A stretch of 64,000 bases of DNA from Streptomyces yatensis. GTDB taxonomy: Bacteria > Actinomycetota > Actinomycetes > Streptomycetales > Streptomycetaceae. A program made the position numbers and the translations under genes. Shown piece by piece: positions 25,451 to 64,000 of this stretch (the stretch's first letter is position 1; every line of letters starts with the position of its first letter). Under the pieces are notes generated by a model. The model had not been told where the DNA came from. It did no database searches and saw only the letters and a program-made list of their open reading frames with translations. The stretch spans positions 9,672,001-9,736,000 of the forward strand of contig NZ_CP072941.1 in NCBI RefSeq assembly GCF_018069625.1, read 5' to 3'.

Positions 25451-25495
25451 TGGCCCGCTCTCCTATGGCCCGCCGTCCTATGGCCCGCCGTCCGC
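25451..25495. repeat. Three tandem 15-bp repeats across a gene end
   Basis: Units TGGCCCGCTCTCCTA, TGGCCCGCCGTCCTA and TGGCCCGCCGTCCGC run head to tail. They span the TetR stop codon (25478-25480), and each of the first two carries the same in-frame stop, so a slippage event would leave the product nearly unchanged. Confidence 0.85.
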
Positions 25496-26071
25496 CGCCG
25501 GAAGGCCGTCCAGGAGGGTGCCGAGCGCGGCCGTCACCAGCGCGCACACCTCGTCCGGGTCCGCGTCGGCCAGCGGCTCCTTGCCCACGAGCACCCGCAT
25601 CATCCCTATGCCGAGCAACCAGGACAGCGCCAGATCCGCCCGCAGCTCGTGGTTGTCGGCGCTGGACAGGGAGGCCAGCACCCGCGCGTAGTCGTCGCTG
25701 ATGGCGCGCACGGCCGTACCGATCTCGTCACCGCTGTCCACCGAGCGCAGCAGCGTCGCCAGCGCGCGGGTGCCCGGATCCTTCGCACCGTGGCCCAGCA
25801 GCCCCCGCAGGGCGGTCTCCGGCAGCTCATGGGGTGGGGTGGTGCGCAGCTGCTCCTCCCCGTTGCGCGCGATCACCTCGCCGAACAGCGCTCTCTTCGA
25901 GCCGAAATAGCGGAACAGCAGCGCCTGGTTGACCCCCGCGCGATCGGCGATGTCCCGCACCGTCGCCCGTTCATAGCCCCGCTCGGCGAACAGCGCCGCC
26001 GCGGCCTCCAGCAGCCGCCGACGTGTGTTCCGCGCGTCCCGCCGCTGTCCCTCGGACACGGTCGTCCCCAT
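25478..26071 (-). CDS. TetR/AcrR-family repressor divergent from P450
   Basis: 197 residues. Helix-turn-helix at about residues 15-60 (RRRLLEAAAALFAERGYERATVRDIADRAGVNQALLFRYFGSKRALF), the canonical TetR form, and a C-terminal ligand domain with a TetR_C-like segment (RADLALSWLLGIGMMRVL). The start is ATG ending at 26071; a GTG directly upstream (26074) is equally possible. The gene is divergent from the P450-ferredoxin pair with 133 bases between. A perfect palindrome close to the P450 start is its probable operator, so it likely represses the P450 pair. The inducer is unknown. Confidence 0.88.
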   Translation of the reverse strand: MGTTVSEGQRRDARNTRRRLLEAAAALFAERGYERATVRDIADRAGVNQALLFRYFGSKRALFGEVIARNGEEQLRTTPPHELPETALRGLLGHGAKDPGTRALATLLRSVDSGDEIGTAVRAISDDYARVLASLSSADNHELRADLALSWLLGIGMMRVLVGKEPLADADPDEVCALVTAALGTLLDGLPAADGGP

Positions 26072-26173
26072 CACGCCACACCCTCTCGTCAGCTTGCGGC
26101 GATTCCCCGTCGGGCCGCCAGATCAACGGCGCAAAGGGGCCGTTGACCGTACCAGCCGACGGCTCCTACGTTT

Positions 26174-26189
26174 GTAAGCACGTGCTTAC
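26174..26189. promoter_or_regulatory. Perfect 16-bp palindrome, probable TetR operator
   Basis: GTAAGCACGTGCTTAC is fully self-complementary. It ends 15 bases before the P450 GTG start and just ahead of its ribosome site (AAGGGAGG), where a bound repressor would block transcription. Spacing and symmetry match TetR-family operators; the divergent TetR protein is the obvious binder (inference). Confidence 0.75.
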
Positions 26190-26204
26190 GCAAGGGAGGC
26201 CACG

Positions 26205-27395
26205 GTGACCACAGCGGAGACGACACCCCTCACCTATCCCTTCAACTCCTCCGACGGGCTGGCGCTCAGCGAAGCGTACGAACAGGCCAGGAACCGCACC
26301 GGATTACTCCGGGTGCGCCTGCCCTACGGCGAGCCCGCCTGGCTGGCCACGCGGTACGCCGACGCCCGGCTGGTGCTCGGCGACCGGCGGTTCAGCCGCG
26401 CGGAGGCGCTCCACCACGACGAGCCACGGCAGTCCGAGGGCCGGCGCGACAGCGGCATCCTGACCATGGACCCGCCCGACCACACCCGGCTGCGCACCCT
26501 CGTCGCCAAGGCGTTCACCGTCCACCAGGTGGAGAAACTCCGCCCCTGGGTCCGGCAGTTGACCCATGACCTGCTCGACGACCTGGAGGCGGCGGGGCCA
26601 CCGGCCGATCTCGTGGACCGCTATGCCCTGCCCATTCCGGTCGGGGTCATCTGCGCCATGCTCGGCGTCCCGGAGGAGGACCGGCCGAAGTTCCGGACCT
26701 GGAGCGACGCCGCGCTGTCCACCAGCTCGCTGACCGCCGAGGAGTCCGCCCGCAACACCGAGGAGCTGCGCGCCTATATGGCCGGGCTGGTCGAGGCCCA
26801 TCGCGGCAGCCCCCGGGACGACATCATGACCTCGCTGATCGAGGCGAGGGACGCGGGCGACCGGCTGTCCGAGCTCGAACTCGTCGATCTGTGCGTGGCC
26901 ATCCTGGTGGCCGGGCACGAGACCACGGCCACCCAGATCCCCAACTTCGTGCTGACGCTGCTGGAGCACCCGCGGGAGCTGCGGCGGCTGCGCGAGAACC
27001 CCGAGCTGCTGAACGGCGCCGTCGAGGAGCTGCTGCGCTTCGTCCCGCTGGGCATGGGGGCCTCCCAGGCCCGCTACGCCACCGAGGACGTCGAGGTGGG
27101 CGGCACCCTGGTGCGCGCCGGGGAGCCCGTGCTGGTCGCGGTGGGCTCGGCCAACCGCGACGCGCTGCGCTTCGACGAGGCGGGCGTTCTGAACGTCGCC
27201 CGCCCCGCCGCCCAGCACCTCGGCTTCGGCCACGGAGTGCACCACTGCCTGGGCGCGCCGCTGGCCCGTCTGGAGCTCCAGGAGGCGCTCGGCGCGCTGA
27301 TCACCCGGTTCCCGGGGCTGCGGGCGGCCGGGGATGTGGAGTGGAAGGGCCAGATGCTGGTCCGCGGGCCCCGTGTCATGCCGATCGCGTGGTGA
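26205..27395 (+). CDS. Cytochrome P450
   Basis: 396 residues, the standard bacterial class I P450 length. MDPPDHTRLR (near residue 88), the I-helix oxygen-activation motif AGHETTAT (about 235), the K-helix ELLR (ExxR) and the haem loop FGHGVHHCLGAPLARLE with the cysteine ligand C348 are all intact. The gene overlaps a 3Fe-4S ferredoxin gene by GTGA, the usual redox partner arrangement. The GTG start has AAGGGAGG 5 bases upstream. Codon 34 is TTA (26304-26306), implying bldA control, which is frequent in secondary-metabolism genes. It lies 1.4 kb from the NRPS operon end, so it might tailor the peptide, but it points the opposite way and has its own repressor. Substrate unknown. Confidence 0.92.
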   Translation: MTTAETTPLTYPFNSSDGLALSEAYEQARNRTGLLRVRLPYGEPAWLATRYADARLVLGDRRFSRAEALHHDEPRQSEGRRDSGILTMDPPDHTRLRTLVAKAFTVHQVEKLRPWVRQLTHDLLDDLEAAGPPADLVDRYALPIPVGVICAMLGVPEEDRPKFRTWSDAALSTSSLTAEESARNTEELRAYMAGLVEAHRGSPRDDIMTSLIEARDAGDRLSELELVDLCVAILVAGHETTATQIPNFVLTLLEHPRELRRLRENPELLNGAVEELLRFVPLGMGASQARYATEDVEVGGTLVRAGEPVLVAVGSANRDALRFDEAGVLNVARPAAQHLGFGHGVHHCLGAPLARLELQEALGALITRFPGLRAAGDVEWKGQMLVRGPRVMPIAW

Positions 27396-27616
27396 GCGGG
27401 ATGACCTGGAAGGCGGAGATCGACCCCGGCCGGTGCATGGCGTCCGGCATGTGCGCCGGAATCGCCCCCGACCTGTTCGTCCTCGACGAGGAACACGCCC
27501 GGCCGCTTGACGAGGAGGTCCCCGAGGAGGAGCGGGTGCTGGACGCGGCGGACTCCTGTCCCGCGCTGGCGATCACCATCCGCGACGGCACCACGACCGT
27601 CGGACCGCGTCCCTGA
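27392..27616 (+). CDS. 3Fe-4S ferredoxin (P450 redox partner)
   Basis: 74 residues from GTG 27392, which overlaps the P450 stop as GTGA; ATG 27401 would give 71 residues and is closer to the usual family start. Three cysteines occur: C15 and C21 spaced CxxxxxC, and C56 followed by Pro (SCPALAI). Position 18, where a 4Fe-4S protein has its second cysteine, is Ser, so the cluster should be 3Fe-4S. The rest is acidic (DEEHARPLDEEVPEEER), as in small ferredoxins that donate electrons to actinobacterial P450s. It should serve the P450 directly upstream. Confidence 0.9.
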   Translation: MSGMTWKAEIDPGRCMASGMCAGIAPDLFVLDEEHARPLDEEVPEEERVLDAADSCPALAITIRDGTTTVGPRP

Positions 27617-27637
27617 ACCCGCTCCGCGAACCCCGCG

Positions 27638-28501
27638 TCAGGGCTTCTGGGCGACACCCGCCCAGAAGGACACCTCTTCGTCGGTCACATCGCCGGTCTC
27701 CACCTGGGAGTCCGTTTCGGCCAGGTCGGTGCGCCACCGGTGCGGCACCTCCAGGCCCGGTTCGGCCAGCTCCAGCCCGGTGAAGAAGCGTTCCACCTCG
27801 TCCCTGGTGCGGATCTTCCCCGGGATGCCCCCCTTGTTGTAGATCTGCACGGTCTTCTGGGTGGCCTCGGGGTCGAAGTCCGGGGTGATGTGGCTCAGCA
27901 CCAGGAAGGAGCCGGGGGCGAGCGCGTCGACCAACTGCTGGACGATCTCGTACGGGCCCCACTCGTCGGGGACGAAGTGCAGCAACGAGACCAGGCTCAG
28001 CGCGACGGGCTCGGACAGGTCCAGCACCTCGGTGAGATCGGGCGAGGCGAGGATGTTCCCGGGCTCGGTGATGTCCCCGTGCACATAGGCGGTACGGCCC
28101 TCGGGGCTGCTCTTGAGCAGCGCCTGGGCGTGGGCGAGGACGATGGGGTCGTTGTCCACGTAGACGACGCGGGCGTCCGGGGCTATTCCCTGGGCGACCT
28201 CGTGCAGATTGGGCCGGGTGGGGATGCCGGTGCCGATGTCGAGGAACTGGCGGATGCCCCGCTCGGCGGCCAGGAACCGGATCGCGCGGTGCATCCAGGC
28301 CCGGTTGGTCCGGGCGGCGATCATGACACCCGGCCAGAGGGTGAGCACCTTGGCCGCGGCCTCACGGTCGGCGACGTAGTTGTCCTTGCCGCCCAGGAAA
28401 TAGTCGTACATCCGGGCGCTGTGCGGTCGCCCCTGGTTGAGAGGGGTGTTGGGGGGCTCCGGCCCGCTTCCGGTCTGGGATGCTACCCCTTGCGCGGTCA
28501 C
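27638..28501 (-). CDS. SAM-dependent methyltransferase-like protein (DUF574 / Methyltransf_19)
   Basis: 287 residues. The N-terminal HSARMYDYFLGGKDNYVADREAA is the diagnostic DUF574 motif. The SAM-binding motif I is FLDIGTGIPT (residues 86-95), followed by VVYVDNDPIVLAHAQALL (acidic end of strand 2) and LSLVSLLHFVPDEW. DUF574 proteins are abundant in Streptomyces; their substrates are mostly unknown, and methyl transfer is inferred from the fold. The start is GTG ending at 28501 with GGAGGAGAAC just upstream. It lies beyond the hairpin that follows MbtH, so it is probably its own transcript and need not belong to the NRPS pathway. It converges with the ferredoxin gene (21-base gap). Confidence 0.85.
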   Translation of the reverse strand: MTAQGVASQTGSGPEPPNTPLNQGRPHSARMYDYFLGGKDNYVADREAAAKVLTLWPGVMIAARTNRAWMHRAIRFLAAERGIRQFLDIGTGIPTRPNLHEVAQGIAPDARVVYVDNDPIVLAHAQALLKSSPEGRTAYVHGDITEPGNILASPDLTEVLDLSEPVALSLVSLLHFVPDEWGPYEIVQQLVDALAPGSFLVLSHITPDFDPEATQKTVQIYNKGGIPGKIRTRDEVERFFTGLELAEPGLEVPHRWRTDLAETDSQVETGDVTDEEVSFWAGVAQKP

Positions 28502-28650: not shown

Positions 28651-28854
28651 TCAGGAGGCCACGTTGTCCATGCGTTCGCGCAGGCTGCGCGGCCGCATGT
28701 CGGTCCACACCTCGTCGACGTAGGCGGAGCACTCGTCCTTGGTGCCCTCCTTGCCGACGGGGCGCCAGCCCTCGGGCACCTCGAGGTCGGCGGGCCACAG
28801 CGAGTACTGGTCCTCGTCGTTGCGCAGCACCTGGTAGCGGGCGTTGTCGTCCAT
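28651..28854 (-). CDS. MbtH-like NRPS accessory protein
   Basis: 67 residues, the normal size. The conserved pattern is complete: NDEDQYSLWP, then PEGW, then SAYVDEVWTDMRPRSLRERM, with the Trp residues that grip the adenylation domain. MbtH proteins bind A domains and are often needed for their solubility and activity. It is the last gene of the minus-strand operon, 71 bases after the MFS exporter and before a strong hairpin, so it almost certainly serves NRPS A and B here. The ATG start (ending 28854) is preceded by AGGAGAG. Confidence 0.95.
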   Translation of the reverse strand: MDDNARYQVLRNDEDQYSLWPADLEVPEGWRPVGKEGTKDECSAYVDEVWTDMRPRSLRERMDNVAS

Positions 28855-28925: not shown

Positions 28926-30182
28926 TCAGTCGGCTTGGGTCGGCTGCCCCTCCTCATGGCGCCGGGACAGCGTGCGCAGGGTCGGGCTGGCGGTGGCCAG
29001 GACGGCCGCGGCGGCCATCCCCGCGGCGCAGAGCAGGATCGCCCGGTCGCCCGGCACGATCTGGGCGAGCGATCCGCCCAGCGCGGGACCGGCCGCGCCC
29101 GCGGCACCGCAGGCCAGCACGAGCGTGCTGGTGAGCCTGCCGCGCAGCCCGTCCGGGGTGCGCAGCAGCTGATCGGTCATGATCGCGGTGTTGGCCGTCG
29201 GCGGGAACAGCGCCATCAGGGCGAACAGCACCCCGATGAGATAGCCGCTGTCCACCAGCACGGTGACCGGGGCGAACACGGCCAGGGCCCAGAACACCGC
29301 GACGATGGCGCCGTACGAACCCAGCCGCCGGTGCAGTACGGGCGCCACCAGCGCACCGGCCACCCCGCCCACCCCGAGCATGGCCGCCATCACACCGACC
29401 TCCCCGGAGGGCACCCCCCGGGACTCGGCGAGCACGATGACGACGAGATAGAAGGCGCTGAAGAACAGATTGAGCACCACCGCGCACGCCACGGTGACCC
29501 GGATCCTGCGCTCCCCCCACACCCACCGCAGCCCGGCCAGCGCCTCACGGCCCAGCGGGCCCACCCCGCCGGGGGGCCGCTCGCGCCGGGGCAGCCTGAC
29601 GAAGAGCAGCGCGACGAAGGAGAGCGTATGCGTCACGGCGTCCACCAGGAAGGGAACGAACCGCCCCACGGCGAACAGGAATCCGCCGGTCGCGGTGCCC
29701 GCCAGCTGGCCCATCGAGGCACGTGCGGTGTTCATCGCCACCGCCGTGGGCAGATGGTCGTCCGCCACCAGGGCCGGCAGCGACGCGTTCTCCGCCGGTT
29801 CGAAGAGCGCCGCGCTCGCCCCGAACACCGCCGCCACCGCCACCATGTGCCAGACGGTGGCCGCACCGGCCCACACCGCGACCACCAGGCTGATCGCGGA
29901 GACCGCCTGGGCCGCCTCGCAGCCCAGCATGATGGCCTTGCGGTCGTAGCGGTCCACCAGGACACCCGCCGGAAGCCCCACCACCATCTGCGCGGCGGCG
30001 ATGGTGCCCATGACCAGACCGGAGGCGGCGCCGGAGCCGGTGAGCGCGAGGACCAGCAGCGGAAACGCGATCACCGCCGCGTGGAAGCCGAACTCCGAGA
30101 GCGCCTGACTGCCCCACAGCAGCCGGTAGTCCCGGTTGCGCGAGAGGGGGACCGGCGGGGACACCGGCGGGGCCGCGGTCAT
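28926..30182 (-). CDS. MFS exporter of the NRPS operon (EntS-like)
   Basis: 418 residues with about 12 hydrophobic helices. It begins [37 protein letters not shown], the entry of the MFS_3/EntS-like group that often exports siderophores and NRPS products; motif A is [17 protein letters not shown]. Its ATG (30182-30180) overlaps the NRPS B stop (30181-30179) as ATGA, so it is translationally coupled to the synthetase. It is therefore the probable exporter, and possibly the self-resistance determinant, for the peptide. The longer open frame upstream is a shadow of NRPS B. Confidence 0.9.
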
Positions 30183-33100
30183 ACGGCGCCCCGGCAGTCC
30201 TCGGCGATCCGGCGCAGCGCCTCCGCGAAGTCCCCGGCCACCGCCTCCACGGTCGTCCTCTCGTGCACATCGGGGCGGTAGCGCCAGGTGAAGCCGAGCC
30301 GGCCGTCCTGCACCGCGCCCACCACCTCCAGCAGATGGGAACCGCCCTCGCGTGGATCGTGGTCCTGGCCGAACGACCCGTGCTCGGCGTGCACCAGCCC
30401 GCCCTGCGACCGCGCCGACCGGGCGTCCCACTGGCCCAGGTAGTTGAAGACGATCTGCGGCCCGGTGCCGTCGCGGGACAGCCGCTCGCGCAGCTCCGGC
30501 GGGCCGAAGGCCCGTAGCGCCCCGAAGCCGAAGCCGTTGCCGGGGACGGTCCGCAGCCGCCGCCTGACCGATTTGACCAGACCGCGCCAGTCGGCCGGTC
30601 CGTCCTCGGGGATGTCCGGCAGCTCGAAGGAGACCGGGTACATGGTGGTGAACCAGCCCACCGTACGGGAGAGATCGACCCCGTCCAGGATGTCCTCGCG
30701 CCCATGGCCCTCCAGCTCCACGGAGACCCGCTCCTGGCCCGTCCAGCGGGACAGCGCCAGCGCGAGGGCCGCGAGCAGCACATCGTTGATCCGGGTGCGA
30801 TAGGCGGTGGGCGCCGCGCGCAGCAGCGCCTCGGTGTCCCGTTCGCCGAGCTCGACCGGCACCGTACGGATCTCGGCCCCCGGCGCCGCCACCTGGTGGT
30901 CGACCGGCAGTGGCCGGGCGTCGAGCGCTCCGCACCAGTGGTCGGCCTCATGGTCCAGGGCGCCGCCCGCGACATGCTCGGCGAGCCCCCGCGCCCAGTC
31001 GCGGAAGGCGGTGGTCCTGGAGCCGAGGTCCACGAGTTCGCCCCGTACGCCCTGCTGATAGGCGATGTCCAGATCGTCCAGCAGGATCCGCCAGGACACC
31101 CCGTCGATGACCAGATGATGCGCGGTCAGGAAGAGGAACGGCCGCCGGTCCGCGCCGAAGCGGAACAGCGCGGCCTTCAGCAGCGGCCCTTGGCCGAGGT
31201 CGAAGCCCGCGTGGAGCGCGTCGGCCGCCTTCTCCATCGCCGCGTCCGCCTCCCGCGCCGGCAGACCGGACAGGTCATGGCGGTCCAGGACGGTGACCTC
31301 GGACTCCGGCTCGGGGACGTGGCTCCGCCACTCGCCGCCGTCCTCGGTGAACCGGGTGCGCAGCGCGTCATGGTGGACCAGCAGCGCGGCCAGCGCCCCC
31401 TCCAGCGCCTTCTCGTCCGGCTCCTGGTGCAGCTCCAGCAGGGTGGACTGGTTGAAGTGGCGCGGATTCACGGTGTGGGTGGCGAAGAACCAGCGCTGGA
31501 TGGGGGTGAGCGGAAGCGATCCGGTGACCGGCGCCGCGGGGCCCTCGTCCCGCTCGGCCGTGGCCACCGTGGCGAGCGCGGCCACCGACTGATGAGCGAA
31601 CAGATCCTTGGTGGTCAGCCGGAGCCCGGCCTGGCGGGCGCGGGAGACCACCTGGATGCTGAGGATGGAATCCCCGCCGAGGTCGAAGAAGTTGTCCTCC
31701 ACGCCCACCCGTTCCAGACCGAGCACATCCGCCCAGATGTCCGCGATCCGGTGCTCCATCGGGGTGCGCGGGGCGACATGGCCCGCGCCGGAGGTGACGG
31801 GTGCCGGATCCGGATCGGGCAGGGCCCGCCGGTCGACCTTGCCGTGGGCGGTGAGCGGAAGGGCGTCCAGGGTGGCGAACGCCGACGGCACCATATGGGA
31901 CGGCAGGGTCCGGCCCAGGGCGTCGCGCAGCGAGGCGGCGGTCGGCGAGGCGCCCGGCGCCGGGACGACATAGCCCACCAGGCGCTTCCCGCCGGAGGGC
32001 TGCTCCGGCGTCGGGTCGGTCTCCCGCACGGCGACCACCGCTTCCCGCACCTCCGGACTGCGCCGCAGCGCGCTCTCCACCTCGCCGAGTTCGATCCGGA
32101 AGCCCCGCACCTTGACCTGGTCATCGGCCCGGCCCAGGAACCTCAGCTCGCCCTCGCCGGTCCACCGCACCACATCGCCGGTGCGGTACATCCGGCCGCC
32201 CGCCGGGCCGAACGGATCGGCCACGAACCGCCCGGCGGTCAGCCCCGGGCGGCCCAGATAGCCGCGCGCCAGACCTGCGCCCGCCACATACAGCTCCCCG
32301 GCCACGCCCACCGGCACCGGGCGCAGCGCCTCGTCCAGCACATAGACCCGGGTGTTCGCGATCGGCCTGCCGATCGGCGGCGCCCCCGACCCCGCCGTGA
32401 GCGGCCCGGACCAGGTGCTCACCACCGTGGCCTCCGTCGGGCCGTAGGAGTTGACCAGGCGCCGGCCCGGCGCCCAGCGGTCCACCAGCTCGGCGGAGCA
32501 GGCGTCACCGCCGACGATCAGGGTCTTGAGATCCGGCAGCCCCGCCCGCCACGCCGCCTCCGGCACGGTGGCCAGCGCGGCCGGGGGGATCAGCGCATGG
32601 GTGATCCGCTGCCCGCCGAGCACCTCGGCCAGCCGCTCGCCCAGCAGCGGGCCCTCGTCACCGATCACCAGCGCCGCGCCACGGGGCAGCGAGACGCACA
32701 GCTCCAGGACGGAGGCGTCGAAGCTGGGGGAGGAGAACTGCAGCACACGGTCCCCGGCCCGCACGTCGTAGTGCGCGGCCGCGGCCGCCGAGAAACTGGC
32801 CAGCCCCGCATGGGTGACCACGACCGCCTTGGGCACACCGGTGGAGCCGGAGGTGTAGATGACATACGCCGGATGGTCCGGCGTCAGGCCACGCCTTGGC
32901 GGTGGCCCGGCCGGGCCCTCCTCGGCCCACACCGACGCCGCGCCGTCGAGCACCACCGAGGGCGCGGCGTCCCGCAGCATGAACGCCACCCGCTCCTCGG
33001 GATAGCCGGGGTCGACCGGCAGGAACGCACCGCCCGCCTTCGCCACCGCCAGCTGCGCCACCAGCATCTCCACCGAACGCGGCAGCACCAGCGCCACCAG

Positions 33101-36100
33101 GCGCTCCGGCCCCACACCCTGGCCGATGAGCCGGTGCGCCAGCCGGTTCGCGGCCGTCTCCAGCTCGGCGAAGGTGAGATCGCCCTTCCCGTACCGCACG
33201 GCCGTGGCATCCGGGGAGACGGCCGCCTGCCGCTCGAACAGCTCGCGCAGCGTGGCCCGCTCCACCTCCCGCCGGGTGTCGTTCCACTCCACCAGGGTGC
33301 GCCGCAGCTCGGCCGGGGTGGTCAGCGGCAGCGCGCCCACCGGCCGCCGCGGATCCTCGGCGATCCCGGCGAGCAGCGCCCGCAGGGCCGTGCCCATCCG
33401 CTCCACGGTCGAGGCGTCGAACAGATCGGTGCTGTAGCCGATCAGCCCGCGCAGCACGCCCCCCTCGGCCTCGGCGAACTCGAAGGTGAGGTCGAAGGCG
33501 GCGGTGTCGGTCTCCAGCTCCACATCCGCCAGCTCCAGACCGGGCAGCTCCAGCGCCCGGCCCGGGGCGTTCTGCAGCACCACCATCGCCTGGAACAGCG
33601 GGGTCCGGCTGGTGTCCCGGACCGGCCGCACCTCGTCCACCACCCGCTCGAACGGCACCGCCTGATGGGCGAACGCGTCCAGGACGGTGCCGCGCACCTC
33701 GGCCAGGAAGTCCCCGAACCGGGCCCGCGGATCGACCGTGGAGCGCAGCACGAGTGTGTTGACGAAGAAGCCGATCAGCCGCTCCACCTCGGGGCGCTCC
33801 CGACCCGAGGTGACGGTGCCCACGGCGATGTCCCGCCCGCCCGACAGCCGCGCCAGCAGGATCTGGGACGCCGCCACCAGCGTCATGAACAGGGTGGTGC
33901 CCCGCGTGTGCCCGAACTCCTTGAGGCGCAGGCTCACCTCGGCGGGCACCGCGAACTCCACGGTCGCGCCGTTCTTCGTCCGCACCGCGGGCCGGGGCCG
34001 GTCGGTGGGCAGCTCCAGCGGCGGCACCCCGGCCAACTGGCGTGTCCAGTAAGCCAGTTCCTCATCCGCGCGGGGAGCGGTGAGCTCGGCGCGCTGCCAG
34101 GCGGCGAAGTCCGCGTAGTGCACCGGCAGCGGGGGGAGCGCCGCGGGCTCACCGCTCAGCGCCGCCCGGTACAGCTCCCGCAGATCGCCGGTGAGCACAC
34201 CGGTGGACCAGCCGTCGGTGATGATGTGGTGCAACGTCAGGCTCAGCACATGCTCCTGGGCGCCGAGCCGGATCAGCCGGGTGCGCAGCAGCGGTCCGCG
34301 CCGCAGATCGAACGGGCGCGCCCGTTCGTACGCCAGCAGCTCCACCAGCTCCGCCTCCCGCCCGTCGGCGGGGAGGTGGGACAGATCGTACGGCTCGAGC
34401 CGGATCTCCCAGGGGTCGTGCACGATCTGCACGCCACGGCCGTCCACCGCGTCGAAGGTGGTCCGCAGCGACTCATGCCGGGCCACCAGCGCGGTGAGCG
34501 CCGCGCCGAGCGCGTCCACATCGAGGGCGCCGCGCATCCGCAGCGCCAGCGGGGTGATGTACTCGGCGCTGTCCGGTGCGAAGGAGTCCAGGAACCACAG
34601 GCGTTGCTGCGGATACGACAGCGGCAGCTCACCGTCCCGGGCCACCGGGGTGATCGGGGCGGGCCGGTCCTCGGCGCGGCCGTCCGCGCCACCGAGCGCC
34701 TCGGCCAGGGCGGCGACGGTCGGATGGGTGAACACCAGGCGGGGCGAGGGCTCCACCCCGAGCACCTCCCGCAGCCGTGAGGTGAGCCGGATGGAGAGGA
34801 TCGAGTCGCCGCCGAGCTCGAAGAAGTTGTCCCCGGCGCCGACCCGTTCCACCTCCAGCACCTCGGCCCACACCGCCGCCACGGCCTGTTCGGTCCCCGC
34901 GCGCGGCGCGCGGTAGGGCGTACGGCGGATGTCCTGGCCCGGGGCGGGCAGCGCCGCGCGGTCCAGCTTTCCGGTGGGGCCGAGCGGCAGCGCGTCCAGG
35001 GGGACGACGGCGGACGGCACCATATAGTCCGGGAGCCGCTCCGCCGCGTACGCCCGCAGCCGCTCACCGTCCACCGCCCCGTCGCCACCGGCCACCACGT
35101 AGGCCACCAGCCGCTTCCCGCCGGGACCGCCGCTCCGGGCGACCACGGCGACATCCGCCACCTCCGGATGCCCGGCCAGCACCCCCTCCACCTCGCCCGG
35201 TTCGATCCGGAAGCCACGGACCTTGACCTGGTCATCGGCGCGGCCGAGGAACTCCACCGTGCCGTCCGGCCGCCGGCGCGCCAGATCGCCGGTGCGGTAC
35301 ATCCGCTCCCCGGCGGGCCCGTACGGATCGGCGAGGAACGCCGCGGCGGTCGGACCGGGACGGCCGAGGTAGCCACGCGCCACCCCTTCCCCGGCGACGA
35401 AAAGCTCCCCGACCACGCCCGGCGGCACGATCCGCAGCCGCGCATCCAGGACGTGGACCCGCATGTTGTCCAGCGGGCGGCCGATCGGCACCACCTCGGG
35501 CACCTCGTCGGCGCGGGACATCGGGAAGGACGTGGCGAAGGTCGTCGTCTCGGTCGGCCCGTACCCGTCCACCACGGTCAGTCCGGGGCAGTGCTCCAGC
35601 ACCCGGCGCACCGAGGCCGCGGGCACCACGTCGCCGCCCGTCCACACCTCGCGCAGCCCCGTGAAGCAGTCCGGCGTGTCCTGTGCCAGCAGCCGGAACA
35701 GCCCGGCGGTCAGCCACAGCCCGGTGATCCCCTGCCCGGCCACCAGCCCGCGCACCGCCGCGGCGTCCAGCTCGCCCGGTGTCACCACCACCCGGCCACC
35801 GCCCAGCAGCGGCACCCACATCTCGTAGGTGGCGGCGTCGAACGCCACCGGCGAATGCAGCGGCACCCGCTCGTGGCCGCCACCGGCGAAGGCGCGGTCG
35901 AGGGCGAGCGCCGCCACATCGCGGTGGCGCACCCCCACGGCCTTGGGCACACCGGTCGACCCGGAGGTGAACATCACATACGCCAACTGGTCCCGGTGCA
36001 CCGGCACCACCTGCGCCATCGGCTCGCCCTCCCGCGCGGCGGCCACCTCCTCCGGCGTCAGCACGACCGCGGCGCCCGCCTGGTCCAGCAGCGTCCGCCG

Positions 36101-48100: not shown

Positions 48101-50233
48101 CACCAGCGCGGCCGGGTCGAGCCGGGTGGCCTCGTCGACGAGGTGCAGTTCATGGCCGTCCGCCAGCAGCAGCAGCCCCTCCAGCGAGGTGTCGAAGGAG
48201 AACGACGCGGTCAGCCCCGCGCGCAGCGGCCCCCCGCCCGCCTCCGCCACAAAGCCCTGCCGATGGCTGACCAGCAGATTGACCATCGACCGGTGCTCCA
48301 CGGCCACCCCCTTGGGGCGGCCGGTGGAGCCGGAGGTGTACAGGACGTAGGCGGCGCCGTCGGGGTGGAGTGCGGCGGTCCGGTCCGCGTCGGTGGGATC
48401 GGCCGTCGGCAGCGTGGCGGGGACGGCGCGCAGGGCGTCCTCGTCCAGCACCAGCGCCGGATCGGCGTCGGCCAGGAGGAACGCGAGGCGCTCGGCGGGG
48501 AGTTCCGGGTCGAGGGGCAGATAGACCCCGCCCGCCTTGAGCACCGCCAGGATCGCCACAACCATGTCGGCGGTCCGCGGCAGCTTCACCCCGACCACGC
48601 GCTCCGGCCCGACGCCCTGGGCGATCAGATGGTGCGCCAGCCGGTTGGCGGCCGCGTTGAGTCCCGCGAAGTCGTAGGTGGCGTCGGAGGCCACCAGCGC
48701 CGTCGCCTCCGGCGTACGGGCCGCCTGAGCCTCGAACATCGCCGGGAACGTGGCCGGTTGGACCGCGAGCGCGGGGCCGCGCCCGGCGGCCGTCATCCGC
48801 CGCCGTTCGCCGTCCGTGAGCAGGGGCAGCTCCCGCACCGGCCGGTCCGGATCGGCGGCCACCCCGTCGAGCAGCACCAGCAGATGGCCCGCCATCCGCT
48901 CGGCGGTCGCCGTGTCGAACAGCTCGGTGCTGTACTCCAGCAGCCCCCGCAGCTCCGCCCCATCCGGCCCGTCTTCGACGAACTCGACGCTGAGGTCGAA
49001 GGTGGCCGATTGCCGGGGCACATCCACGCTCGCCGCGGCCAGCCCGGACAGCCGGGGCGCGCTCCGCGGGGCGCTGTGCAGCAGCACCATCACGTCGAAC
49101 AGCGGATTGCGGCCCGCCTCCCGGCGCGCCCCCACGGCCTCCACCAGCCGCTGGTAGGGCGTCTCGTCGTGGGCGAAGGCGTCCAGCACCGTGGCCCCGG
49201 CGTCGGCCAGCAGCTCGCGGTAGGAACGGGCCGTGTCCACGGTGGAGCGCAGCACCACCGTATGGACGAAGAAGCCGACGGCGCGTTCCAGTTCGGTGCG
49301 GCCGCGGCCGGAGGTGACGGTGCCGATGGCGATGTCGTCCTGCCCCGACCAGCGGGCGAACAGCCCCTGGCAGGCGGCGACCAGCGCCGTGAACAGCGTG
49401 GTCCGCTCCCGCGCGGCCAGCGCGCGCAGCCGGTCCGCGGTGGCGCGGTCCACGGTGAACTCATGCATCGCCCCCGCCGAGGTGTGCGCCGCGGGCCGGG
49501 GCCGGTCGGTGGGCAGCTCCAGCGGGACGACCCCGTCCAGCCGCCCCTTCCAGTAGTCGAGCTGCCGGTCCAGCGCGGCCCCCGAGAGCCGCTCCCGCTG
49601 CCACACGGCGAAGTCGGGATACTGCACCGGCACCGGGGGCAGCGGCTCCGCCGCGTACAGCGCACACAGCTCGTCCTGGAGCACCCCCATCGACCAGCCG
49701 TCGGTGACGATGTGATGGGCCGTGAGCAGCAGCACGTGCTCGTCCTCGGCCGACCGGATCAGCAGCGCCCGCAGCGGCGGGCCGGTGCGCAGATCGAACG
49801 GCCGGGCGTACTCGGCCAGGAGCAGTTGGTCCAGCGCCCCCGGGCCCCGGTCCGCGCCGGTGAGGTCGGCCACCGGCAGGGCGACGGGCGCGGCCGGGCG
49901 CACCACCTGGGCGGGCCGGCCGTCGATGTCGTCGAACGTGGTCCGCAGCGCCTCATGGCGCTCCACCAGGGCATCCAGCGCCCCGGAGAGCGCCGCCACG
50001 TCCAGCGCGCCGGTCAGCCGCAGCGCCACCGCGCTGTTGTACCCGGCCTCCTCGGGCTGGAGGGTATGCAGAAACCACAGCCGTTCCTGGGCGAAGGACA
50101 GCGGCAGCGGCCGCGCGCGGTCCGCGCGGGGGATGGCGTCGGTGCGCCCGGCCTTGCCCGCGAGGCGGCGCCGAAGGGCCTCCCGCAGCTCCACGGGCAG
50201 CGCGGCGGCGCGATCGTTCCTCGAAGACGTCAT
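30179..50233 (-). CDS. Five-module nonribosomal peptide synthetase (NRPS B), ends in epimerase, no thioesterase
   Basis: 6684 residues, order C-A-T-E / C-A-T / C-A-T-E / C-A-T / C-A-T-E. Each carrier domain has the GGDSI phosphopantetheine serine site. The C-domain active sites are [36 protein letters not shown] and HHIITDGWS; the epimerase sites are [20 protein letters not shown] and [11 protein letters not shown] domains after an E domain start with an EDxYPLTPLQxGMLFH motif (DCL-like); the others are LCL-like. Adenylation codes in order: DTEDMGFIDK, DFWSVGMVHK (Thr), DTEDMGFVDK, DAYWWGGTFK (Val), DALLIGSVVK. The protein ends inside the E domain ([11 protein letters not shown]) with no thioesterase or reductase. 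The basic N-terminus ([16 protein letters not shown]) may dock to NRPS A, whose gene ends 11 bases upstream. AGGAAGGA precedes the ATG. Confidence 0.95.
30200..34640 (-). other. NRPS B module 5 (C-A-T-E), terminal module, D-configured
   Basis: Approximate bounds. LCL condensation site near 34220, carrier near 31670, epimerase near 31105. Code DALLIGSVVK points to a hydrophobic residue I cannot name; it nearly equals the code of the last module of NRPS A (DALLIGAVVK). The terminal epimerase means the peptide would be released with a D residue at its C-terminus. Confidence 0.75.
34690..37760 (-). other. NRPS B module 4 (C-A-T), valine-like
   Basis: Approximate bounds. DCL condensation site near 37315, carrier near 34800. 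Code DAYWWGGTFK is 8/10 identical to the classical valine code DAFWIGGTFK and identical to the first complete module of NRPS A. No epimerase, so L-Val is expected. Core motif A3 reads [11 protein letters not shown], with Ala where Gly is usual. Confidence 0.8.
37780..42350 (-). other. NRPS B module 3 (C-A-T-E), acidic pocket, D-configured
   Basis: Approximate bounds. LCL condensation site near 41935, carrier near 39330, epimerase near 38750. Code DTEDMGFVDK is identical to module 1 except Val for Ile at position 330, so both should load the same residue, probably basic. This module has TKNG rather than TSAG near its condensation-domain bridge region, so it is not a simple copy of module 1. 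Confidence 0.75.
42430..45620 (-). other. NRPS B module 2 (C-A-T), threonine
   Basis: Approximate bounds. The DCL condensation domain (active site near 45170) follows the module 1 epimerase. Pocket code DFWSVGMVHK differs from the textbook threonine code DFWNIGMVHK at two positions; flanking [13 protein letters not shown] and [14 protein letters not shown] are also characteristic of Thr domains. The carrier site is near 42530. No epimerase, so L-Thr is expected. Confidence 0.85.
43024..43099. repeat. 76-bp exact repeat, copy in module 2 A domain
   Basis: Identical base for base to 47644-47719. It covers the C-terminal part of the adenylation core (around the YRTGD motif). Two A domains with different substrate codes share it, which suggests gene conversion or subdomain exchange. 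Confidence 0.9.
45640..50110 (-). other. NRPS B module 1 (C-A-T-E), acidic pocket, D-configured
   Basis: Approximate bounds. The LCL condensation active site is at about 49695-49720, the carrier GGDSI near 47150, and the epimerase site near 46580. Specificity code DTEDMGFIDK has Glu at position 239 and Asp at 278 and 331, besides the usual Asp235, suggesting a positively charged side chain (Orn, Arg, Lys or a relative); the exact residue is not assignable by eye. The epimerase motif is HHLAVDS, with Ser in place of Gly. Confidence 0.75.
47644..47719. repeat. 76-bp exact repeat, copy in module 1 A domain
   Basis: Partner of 43024-43099, in the same position of the module 1 adenylation domain. 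The flanking bases on both sides differ between the copies, so the match is bounded. Confidence 0.9.
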
Positions 50234-62200: not shown

Positions 62201-64000
62201 AACCTCCGCAGCTCCTCCCGGCGCTCGTCCGGCCCGGACAGATGACGCCAGTCGAGCAGGGTGACCGGGATCCGCACCCCGCGCTCCACCACCTGGACCG
62301 GCTCCGGCACCCCCTCCCACACCACACGGGCGCGCAACACCTGCGTACGGTCGGCGACCTGCTGCCAGGCCGCGGCCAGCGCCGCCGGATCGGGCACCCC
62401 GTCGAGGACGAAGCTGAGCTGCTGGAAGTAGGCGCGCCGGTCGTCCTGGGCCAGGCTGTGGAACAGCATGCCCGCCTGGGTGGGGGTGAGCGGGTAGATG
62501 TCCTCCACCGTGCCGCCGTTCCCCGCCAGCCGGTCCACGGCGGCCTGGTCGAGCGCGGCGAGCGGGAAGTCGGACGGGGTGCGGCCGCCCGCTCCTGGCG
62601 CGCTGCCGTGCCGGGCGATCTCGCACAGCGCCTCGCGGAACTCCCCGGCGAGCCGGGCGACCGTCTCCTCCCGGTGCAGATTCCCGGAGTAGAACCAGGT
62701 GAACTCCAGGTCGTTCCCCTCGACCCGGCCCACCACCTCCAGCGGATGCGGGCGCGGCGAGGCCGGGTCGGCGTCCAGGGCCAGCTCCCGGTGGAGGCCG
62801 CGGAACAGGCCGTCGCCACCGCCCGGCGCCTCGAACCGGCCGAGGTAGTTGAAGCTGATCCCGGCCGTGGGGCCGTCGGGAAGGCCCTCGCCGTCGAGCA
62901 GATGGCGCCGCACGCCGTAGCCCAGACCACGCCGTGGCACGGCCCGCATCTGCTCCTTGACCGACTTGAGGACCGTGCCCCAGCCGCCGTCCGGGAGGTC
63001 GAGCGCCACCGGGAAGCGGGTGGTGAACCAGCCGACCGTACGGGACAGATCCAGGTCCGCGAAGAGCTCCTCGCGGCCGTGGCCCTCCACGTCCACCGGC
63101 ACCCGGGGGCGCCCGGTCCAGCGGTGCAGCACCCGGGCCAGCGCGCTCAGCAGCACATCGTTGACCTGCGTGCGGTAGACCTCGGGCAGCGTCTGGAGCA
63201 GCGCGGCGGTCTCCTCCGGGCCGAGCCGGAAGGTGACCGACCGGGCCGAGGCATAGGTGTTCGGCCCGTCCAGGTCCATCGGCAGCGAGGGGTCGCAGAC
63301 CCCGGCCAGGCCGGTCCAGTACGCCTCCTCGTCGGCGAATCCGCCCTCGGACGCATGGGCGGTGAGCCGCAGCGCCCAGCGGCGCAGCGGGGAGGACTTC
63401 GCGGGAAGTCCGGCCCCCTCGTCGTGGGCGGCCCGCCGGTAGGCGCTGTCGAGGTCCTCCAGGAGGACGCGCCAGGACACCCCGTCCACGACCGCGTGGT
63501 GGACGGTGAGATGGAGGACCGGGCGCGGCCCGGCGTCCCGGTCGAGCACCGCGCGCAGCAGCGGCTCCCCGGCCAGGTCGAAGCGGCCCAGATGCGCGCC
63601 GCCGGTGGCCGTCAGCGGTACGCGGACCGCCGCCGCGTCCTCGATCCGCTGGTGCCAGCCGTCGTCCCGGCGGTGGAAGCGGGAGCGCAGGGCGTCATGG
63701 TGTGCCACCAGCGCGTCCAGGGCGTGCCGCAGCGCGTCCTCGTCCACGTCCTCGGGCAGCACCAGGGAGATGGTCTGGTTGAAGTGGCCGGCCCGCTCGG
63801 GGTCGGTGGTGAACAGCCAGTGCTGAATGGGGGTCAGCGGCAGCTCCCCGGTGGCCGTTACGTCCCCGTCGGAGCCGGGCGGCCCGGCCGGGGCGGTGGT
63901 GGTGTCCAGATGCAGGGCCAGCGCGGCGACCGTCTGGTGGCGGTAGACATCGCGCGAGGTGACGGCGAGCCCGGCCTGCCGCGCCTGGGAGACCAGCTGG
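50245..64000 (-). CDS. Nonribosomal peptide synthetase (NRPS A), 5' part outside the window
   Basis: 4585 codons are visible; the frame is open to base 64000, which falls inside a carrier domain ([21 protein letters not shown]). Visible order: [T]-E / C-A-T-E / C-A-T-E / C-A-T. Epimerase sites: [20 protein letters not shown] and [10 protein letters not shown]; condensation sites: [18 protein letters not shown] and HHVLLDGWS, all DCL-like and all preceded by an E domain, as expected. Adenylation codes: DAYWWGGTFK (Val), DVFSVAIVYK (unassigned) and DALLIGAVVK (unassigned, hydrophobic). The last carrier reads [18 protein letters not shown], followed by an acidic tail, [21 protein letters not shown], that could dock to the basic start of NRPS B. 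It lies 11 bases upstream of NRPS B, so both are made from one transcript. Confidence 0.95.
50300..53400 (-). other. NRPS A module c (C-A-T), hydrophobic residue
   Basis: Approximate bounds. Condensation site near 52960, carrier near 50420. Code DALLIGAVVK, almost the code of NRPS B module 5. No epimerase. It hands the chain to NRPS B across proteins, and its carrier lacks the SILSIQ sequence of carriers that precede epimerases. Confidence 0.75.
53410..57960 (-). other. NRPS A module b (C-A-T-E), unassigned residue, D-configured
   Basis: Approximate bounds. Condensation site near 57510, carrier near 54925, epimerase near 54360. Code DVFSVAIVYK; A3 motif [12 protein letters not shown]. The pocket has Ala at 301 and Tyr at 331 and differs clearly from every other domain in the window. 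I do not assign a residue. The epimerase motif reads HHLVVDA. Confidence 0.75.
57980..62540 (-). other. NRPS A module a (C-A-T-E), D-valine
   Basis: Approximate bounds. Condensation site near 62085, carrier near 59495, epimerase near 58925. Code DAYWWGGTFK, valine-like, shared with module 4 of NRPS B. The epimerase has the full HHxxxDG motif, so D-Val is expected. The preceding partial T-E unit at about 62560-64000 epimerises the residue before it. Confidence 0.8.

Follow-up and report, generated by a model that had tools for sequence, protein, structure and literature searches.

A thioesterase-less ten-module peptide synthetase of Streptomyces yatensis and the adjacent PBP-type thioesterase predicted to release its product

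The locus described here raises the question of how a nonribosomal peptide is released from an assembly line whose last protein ends in an epimerase (E) domain. It lies in a stretch of 64,000 nucleotides (the window; C1:9672001-9736000) of the one-contig, 10.36 Mb genome of Streptomyces yatensis. The assembly line is encoded by two genes, NRPS A and NRPS B, whose module and domain order was read by motif and Pfam (Table 1).

Table 1. Features of the locus in window numbering, which is continued past the window edge at 64000; contig and locus coordinates are added in brackets.
Feature	Position	Strand	Length	Domains and matches
NRPS A	50245-68883 (past the window edge)	-	6212 aa	M1 A-T, M2 C-A-T-E, M3 C-A-T-E, M4 C-A-T-E, M5 C-A-T
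NRPS B	30179-50233	-	6684 aa	M6 C-A-T-E, M7 C-A-T, M8 C-A-T-E, M9 C-A-T, M10 C-A-T-E
Last module of NRPS B	30182-34621			hmmscan: Condensation x2, AMP-binding x1, AMP-binding_C x1, PP-binding x1
M10 terminal epimerase domain	30188-31522 (C1:9702188-9703522)	-		PF00668, 246.5 bits; E-type motifs
MFS exporter	28926-30182	-	418 aa	PF05977/PF07690; ATG start
MbtH-like protein	28651-28854	-	67 aa	PF03621
TetR regulator, P450, S-adenosyl methyltransferase	25478-28501			PF04672 (methyltransferase)
PBP-type (SurE-type) thioesterase	69018-70376 (C1:9741018-9742376; L010:18-1376)	-	452 aa	PF00144; GTG start
Copper amine oxidase catalytic-domain protein	70426-71742 (L010:1426-2742), outside the window	-		PF01179
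Second PF00144 gene	76379-77608 (L010:7379-8608)	-		PF00144
Lone NRPS frame	(C1:9296281-9301038; L094:10281-15038)	+	1586 aa	Two Condensation-family domains

A sequence-only reading of the window had proposed that the final protein stops right after its E domain, placed at 30179-31530, and the Pfam match bears this out. The final hit to the Condensation family in NRPS B corresponds to the E domain of module 10, which carries E-type motifs at residues 6563, 6699 (EGHGRE), 6714 (RTVGWF) and 6788 (NYLG) of the mechanical open reading frame (ORF). NRPS B ends 313 residues past the first His of the HH motif of this domain, which leaves no room for a thioesterase. Consistently, hmmscan found no thioesterase or reductase family in the last module at E <= 0.001, and neither was detected by Pfam in any of the ten modules of NRPS A and NRPS B. 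The exporter and MbtH genes that the same reading placed next are present as well; the exporter gene overlaps the stop of NRPS B by 4 bp, and the MbtH gene lies 71 bp beyond it. At the other end, the ATG at 50233, 11 bp past the stop of NRPS A, is the probable start of NRPS B, in place of the 50806 given by the mechanical ORF. The regulator, P450 and methyltransferase genes adjoin the MbtH gene, and a small ferredoxin-like ORF, recognised by eye, accompanies the P450 on the opposite strand. Five of the 20 other stretches that were fetched carry near homologues of these genes, so the genes are probably not part of the core cluster.

A further NRPS with a thioesterase or reductase acting after NRPS B would have spoken against release in trans; it was looked for nearby and not found. 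Condensation matches number 53 genome-wide, and NRPS A and NRPS B account for all 15 at 9.702-9.739 Mb, the nearest others on the two sides lying at 9.542 and 10.146 Mb. PF00975 thioesterases gave no match from C1:8.801 to 9.960 Mb, and PF07993 reductases none from C1:9.385 to 10.057 Mb. The lone NRPS frame was considered as a missing last subunit and rejected, since it lies about 400 kb away, reads C-A-T-C in a crude motif scan, and no link to the present line was found. There was also no PF00975 match within 400 kb of it.

It had further been predicted that a stand-alone PBP-type thioesterase would be encoded outside the window, probably past base 64000. Such a gene was found 5.0 kb beyond that base and wholly outside the window; it is the next gene upstream of NRPS A, shares its strand and is separated from it by 134 bp. 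Its product matches PF00144 with 197 bits and contains the SxxK and YxN motifs that were proposed as search marks, namely S120-x-x-K123 (SVTK) and Y208-S-N210, together with H351-D-G (numbering of the 501-aa mechanical ORF). This ORF is probably too long, since several homologues lose the frame upstream and the homologue match starts at the GTG at 70376. GGAG lies six bases ahead of this GTG, and the start yields the protein length given in Table 1. The closest solved relatives are SurE (6ksu, E 5.8e-73) and Ulm16 (8fek, 2.9e-58), the next being an esterase at 3.5e-29, with D-amidases/peptidases at about 2e-23. The genome holds one match to this protein at E <= 1e-60 and 22 matches to PF00144, two of which sit just right of the window. 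The second PF00144 gene, 6 kb further on, was rejected as the cyclase because it encodes an EstA-type carboxylesterase (5gmx, 7.8e-97); SurE was absent among the 60 matches listed for it.

The active site of the putative cyclase is conserved. Residues S71, K74, Y159, N161 and H302 are invariant in an alignment of 17 rows (A1). The SxxK, YSN and HDG motifs were found in the cyclase of S. yatensis and at all 19 homologous loci (L013-L031), at each of which the cyclase ORF had been selected by the motif FSYSN.GY, present in all 19. The pocket residue Gly235 of SurE, which has been tied to the acceptance of a C-terminal D residue (PMC11735501, accessible text), aligns with Gly285 of the 501-aa ORF. 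This Gly is kept at 17 of the 19 loci and replaced by Ser at the other two, L030 and L031. An AlphaFold2 model of the protein (pLDDT 81.2, pTM 0.86) has SurE (6ksu_A) as its best PDB match (E 3.7e-37, TM 0.79/0.80, 443 columns, 38% identity), and the predicted fold matches SurE over its full two-domain length. The model includes a C-terminal lipocalin-like beta domain with seven strands from residue 372, compared with eight reported for the family. By its catalytic domain and active site, its modelled beta domain, its stand-alone gene beside a thioesterase-less NRPS and its nearest solved relatives SurE and Ulm16, the protein is assigned to the SurE family. Substrates of this family begin with an L residue and end in a D residue or Gly; such a substrate is predicted here from the domain order, module 1 being without and module 10 with an E domain.

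The copper amine oxidase gene lies upstream of the cyclase gene, with a gap of 49 bp between its end and the start of the cyclase. Its product has WYDY where the E. coli oxidase has NYDY, keeps HxH, and has an N-terminus that looks like a signal peptide by eye. A homologue adjoins the cyclase gene at 14 of the 19 loci L013-L031. Oxidation of a basic side chain in the peptide is one possible role; alternatively, the enzyme may be an unrelated neighbour.

Six of the ten modules of NRPS A and NRPS B contain an E domain, and the configuration of the chain can be predicted from them. The nine C domains fall into two classes, {2,6,8,10} and {3,4,5,7,9}, with at least 48.6% identity within and at most 32.5% between classes; one of the 126 four/five splits separates them this well. 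The second class comprises exactly the modules that follow an E-bearing module. This match with the upstream E positions lends support to the view that the five internal E domains are active, including those of modules 4 and 6, whose motifs HHLVVDA (NRPS A residue 4838) and HHLAVDS (NRPS B ORF residue 1404) deviate from the usual DG. The predicted configuration is L-D-D-D-L-D-L-D-L-D. Its final D residue, also anticipated by the sequence-only reading, follows from the terminal E domain, and its free N-terminus from module 1, which is A-T without a C domain. An N-terminal L and a C-terminal D residue is the pairing described for PBP-type thioesterases, the reverse of that of ordinary thioesterase domains (PMC11735501, accessible text), and the peptide predicted here shares it.

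The specificity codes of modules 1 to 5 are DALLIGSVV, DVFSVALVY, DAYWWGGTF, DVFSVAIVY and DALLIGAVV, and those of modules 6 to 10 are DTLDMGFID, DFWSVGMVH, DTWDMGFVD, DAYWWGGTF and DALLIGSVV. They comprise nine positions, aligned over 20 clusters including that of S. yatensis, with the broken G015 left out. The positions are taken to follow GrsA numbering, for which modules 3 and 9 serve as anchor, as both yield a code printed for Val. The printed codes are DAYWWGGTFK for Val and DFWNVGMVHK for Thr (PMC9113097, accessible text). Residues 3 and 9 are thus probably Val, and residue 7 is probably Thr, the code of module 7 differing from the printed one at one of nine positions. The codes of modules 6 and 8 carry two acidic positions, suggesting that residues 6 and 8 are perhaps basic. 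One pocket type recurs at residues 1, 5 and 10, and a second type at residues 2 and 4. Piperazic acid was considered for modules 2 and 4, whose codes start with DVFSVA as the published piperazic codes do (PMC3943440, PMC10888640, accessible text), and was rejected because the last two variable positions differ. The literature look-up of codes yielded one paper for the Val code and those on piperazic acid, and none for the other codes.

Homologous clusters were collected through the cyclase. The search gave 22 loci, of which 17 were taken on, while two on short contigs (L013, L024) and three with 32% identity (L032-L034) were left out. Fourteen of the 17 genomes (G003, G004 and G006 being omitted) and six matches outside S. 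yatensis among 41 related genomes, seven of which encode the cyclase with S. yatensis included, make up a set of 20 clusters. The closest named genomes are those of Streptomyces niphimycinicus, S. iranensis and S. antioxidans, with cyclase genes 95%, 91% and 89% identical; we take these to be species of the S. violaceusniger group. All 20 clusters hold the cyclase by selection, so that their agreement carries no independent weight. The scan of these clusters used motifs rather than Pfam. A terminal E domain of the NRPS was seen in 18, the other two being such that this could not be judged. The motif scan counted ten A cores in 13 clusters; G044 and G047 probably also have ten modules, since each shows nine A cores and a C-T-E stretch in which the A motif was missed. 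Eight A cores were counted in Actinoplanes utahensis (L027) and Amorphoplanes auranticolor (L028), and six in Streptomyces sp. NRRL S-350 (L030), while L031 was scanned up to the third module only. In S. himastatinicus (L029; L063-L065) the NRPS B sequence is split among several reading frames, which could reflect draft-assembly errors or decay. MbtH is encoded in 18 of 20 other clusters (identity 76-100%), and an MFS match is likewise present in 18, at 65-93% identity in 11 and at 36-42% in seven. The terminal E domain of S. yatensis is 57-59% identical to those of the eight-module lines, compared with at most 48% to the other E domains of its own line. NRPS A of these eight-module lines has three modules, against five in S. 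yatensis.

The domain order, the missing thioesterase, the SurE-type enzyme with its motifs and the conserved neighbourhood can be read directly from the DNA. On this basis we consider it very probable that the ten-module NRPS makes a head-to-tail cyclic decapeptide, released in trans by the adjacent PBP-type thioesterase. Synthesis would start with a free L-amino acid on module 1 and proceed over the two proteins to a decapeptide L1-D2-D3-D4-L5-D6-L7-D8-L9-D10, whose last residue would be epimerised to D on the carrier of module 10. The thioesterase would then take over the chain from this carrier on its active-site serine and close the ring by joining the amine of residue 1 to the carbonyl of D-residue 10. 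The substrate, the cyclisation and the product assigned to the enzyme are inferred. The identity of 38% to SurE and the seven instead of eight strands of the model count against this reading.

A ring of ten residues is not guaranteed, since SurE gave mostly the linear surugamide F from a decapeptide thioester in a study cited in PMC7459860 (accessible text). As the chain here also has ten residues, the thioesterase might mainly act as a hydrolase and set free a linear decapeptide with a free D C-terminus. We regard this as improbable, because SurE is reported to cyclise an undecapeptide analogue (74%, with an engineered variant) and, without hydrolysis, substrates that contain a linker and equal 23 residues (PMC11735501, accessible text), and because the L N-terminus and D C-terminus are the pairing reported for cyclisation. 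Nucleophilic side chains are probably present, as the code of module 7 fits Thr and modules 6 and 8 look basic, and closure through one of them instead of the N-terminus is conceivable; the N-terminus left free by module 1 makes it very unlikely.

Release might also be due to another enzyme, the PBP-type protein being a D-peptidase, a resistance protein or an esterase. PF00144 is a broad family with many members in this genome, including the second gene near the cyclase. That gene, however, is closest to carboxylesterases, and the protein adjacent to NRPS A matches SurE and Ulm16 far better than it does an esterase or D-amidases/peptidases, and matches SurE over both domains, so that we give this explanation hardly any weight. 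Head-to-tail cyclisation by the adjacent thioesterase is the reading we retain.

No described compound or cluster matching this decapeptide line was found in the literature, most subscription papers being out of reach, so that it may have been published. It is possible, at somewhat less than an even chance, that the line represents a family of cyclic decapeptides not described before, rich in D residues and possibly basic, which has a PBP-type cyclase of its own and occurs in Streptomyces as well as in one or more further actinobacterial families. Ring size would have changed in evolution by a two-module block (ten, and eight in two Actinoplanes-type strains), while the terminal E domain and the lineage of the cyclase were retained. 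If true, nature would offer a series from which to read how much variation in length an assembly line can tolerate when its cyclase acts in trans. A reading of raw sequence has become a checked prediction, with a concrete cluster, a cyclase that can be named and a stereochemical pattern that can be predicted; the cluster can be expressed and its product searched for by mass. Five PBP-type thioesterases have been characterised in vitro, with native peptides of five residues for PenA, six for Ulm16, and eight or ten for SurE, which serves two lines (PMC11735501, accessible text). What sets the ring size could be tested better with a cyclase that stands beside one ten-module line and has relatives at lines of eight and six modules.

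The surugamide system is among the closest known parallels. It likewise combines terminal E domains and the lack of a built-in thioesterase with a stand-alone PBP-type thioesterase, SurE (PDB 6KSU/6KSV), which also takes a decapeptide (PMC11735501, PMC7459860, accessible text). In the sur cluster, 18 modules make an octapeptide and a decapeptide (PMC7459860), whereas a single ten-module line on two proteins is found here, and the cyclases are 38% identical. Ulm16, the ulleungmycin cyclase (PDB 8FEK), is the second-best solved relative, with a fold that the model shares, and its characterisation used a hexapeptide and a tetrapeptide (PMC11735501), in contrast to the decapeptide predicted here. 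A thioesterase-less NRPS with an adjacent SurE homologue has been reported for 166 of 1421 actinobacterial genomes, with 4-10 modules, and the present cluster belongs to this architecture class of up to ten modules, so that its release strategy and size are already known (PMC7459860, accessible text). Peptides of the desotamide family have 6-10 residues, at least one of them Trp or Phe, and are cyclised by SurE-type enzymes. Codes were matched here for Val (modules 3 and 9) and Thr (module 7), while those of modules 1, 2, 4, 5 and 10 gave no assignment. With ten modules and a SurE-type gene, the line described here may make a peptide of this family.
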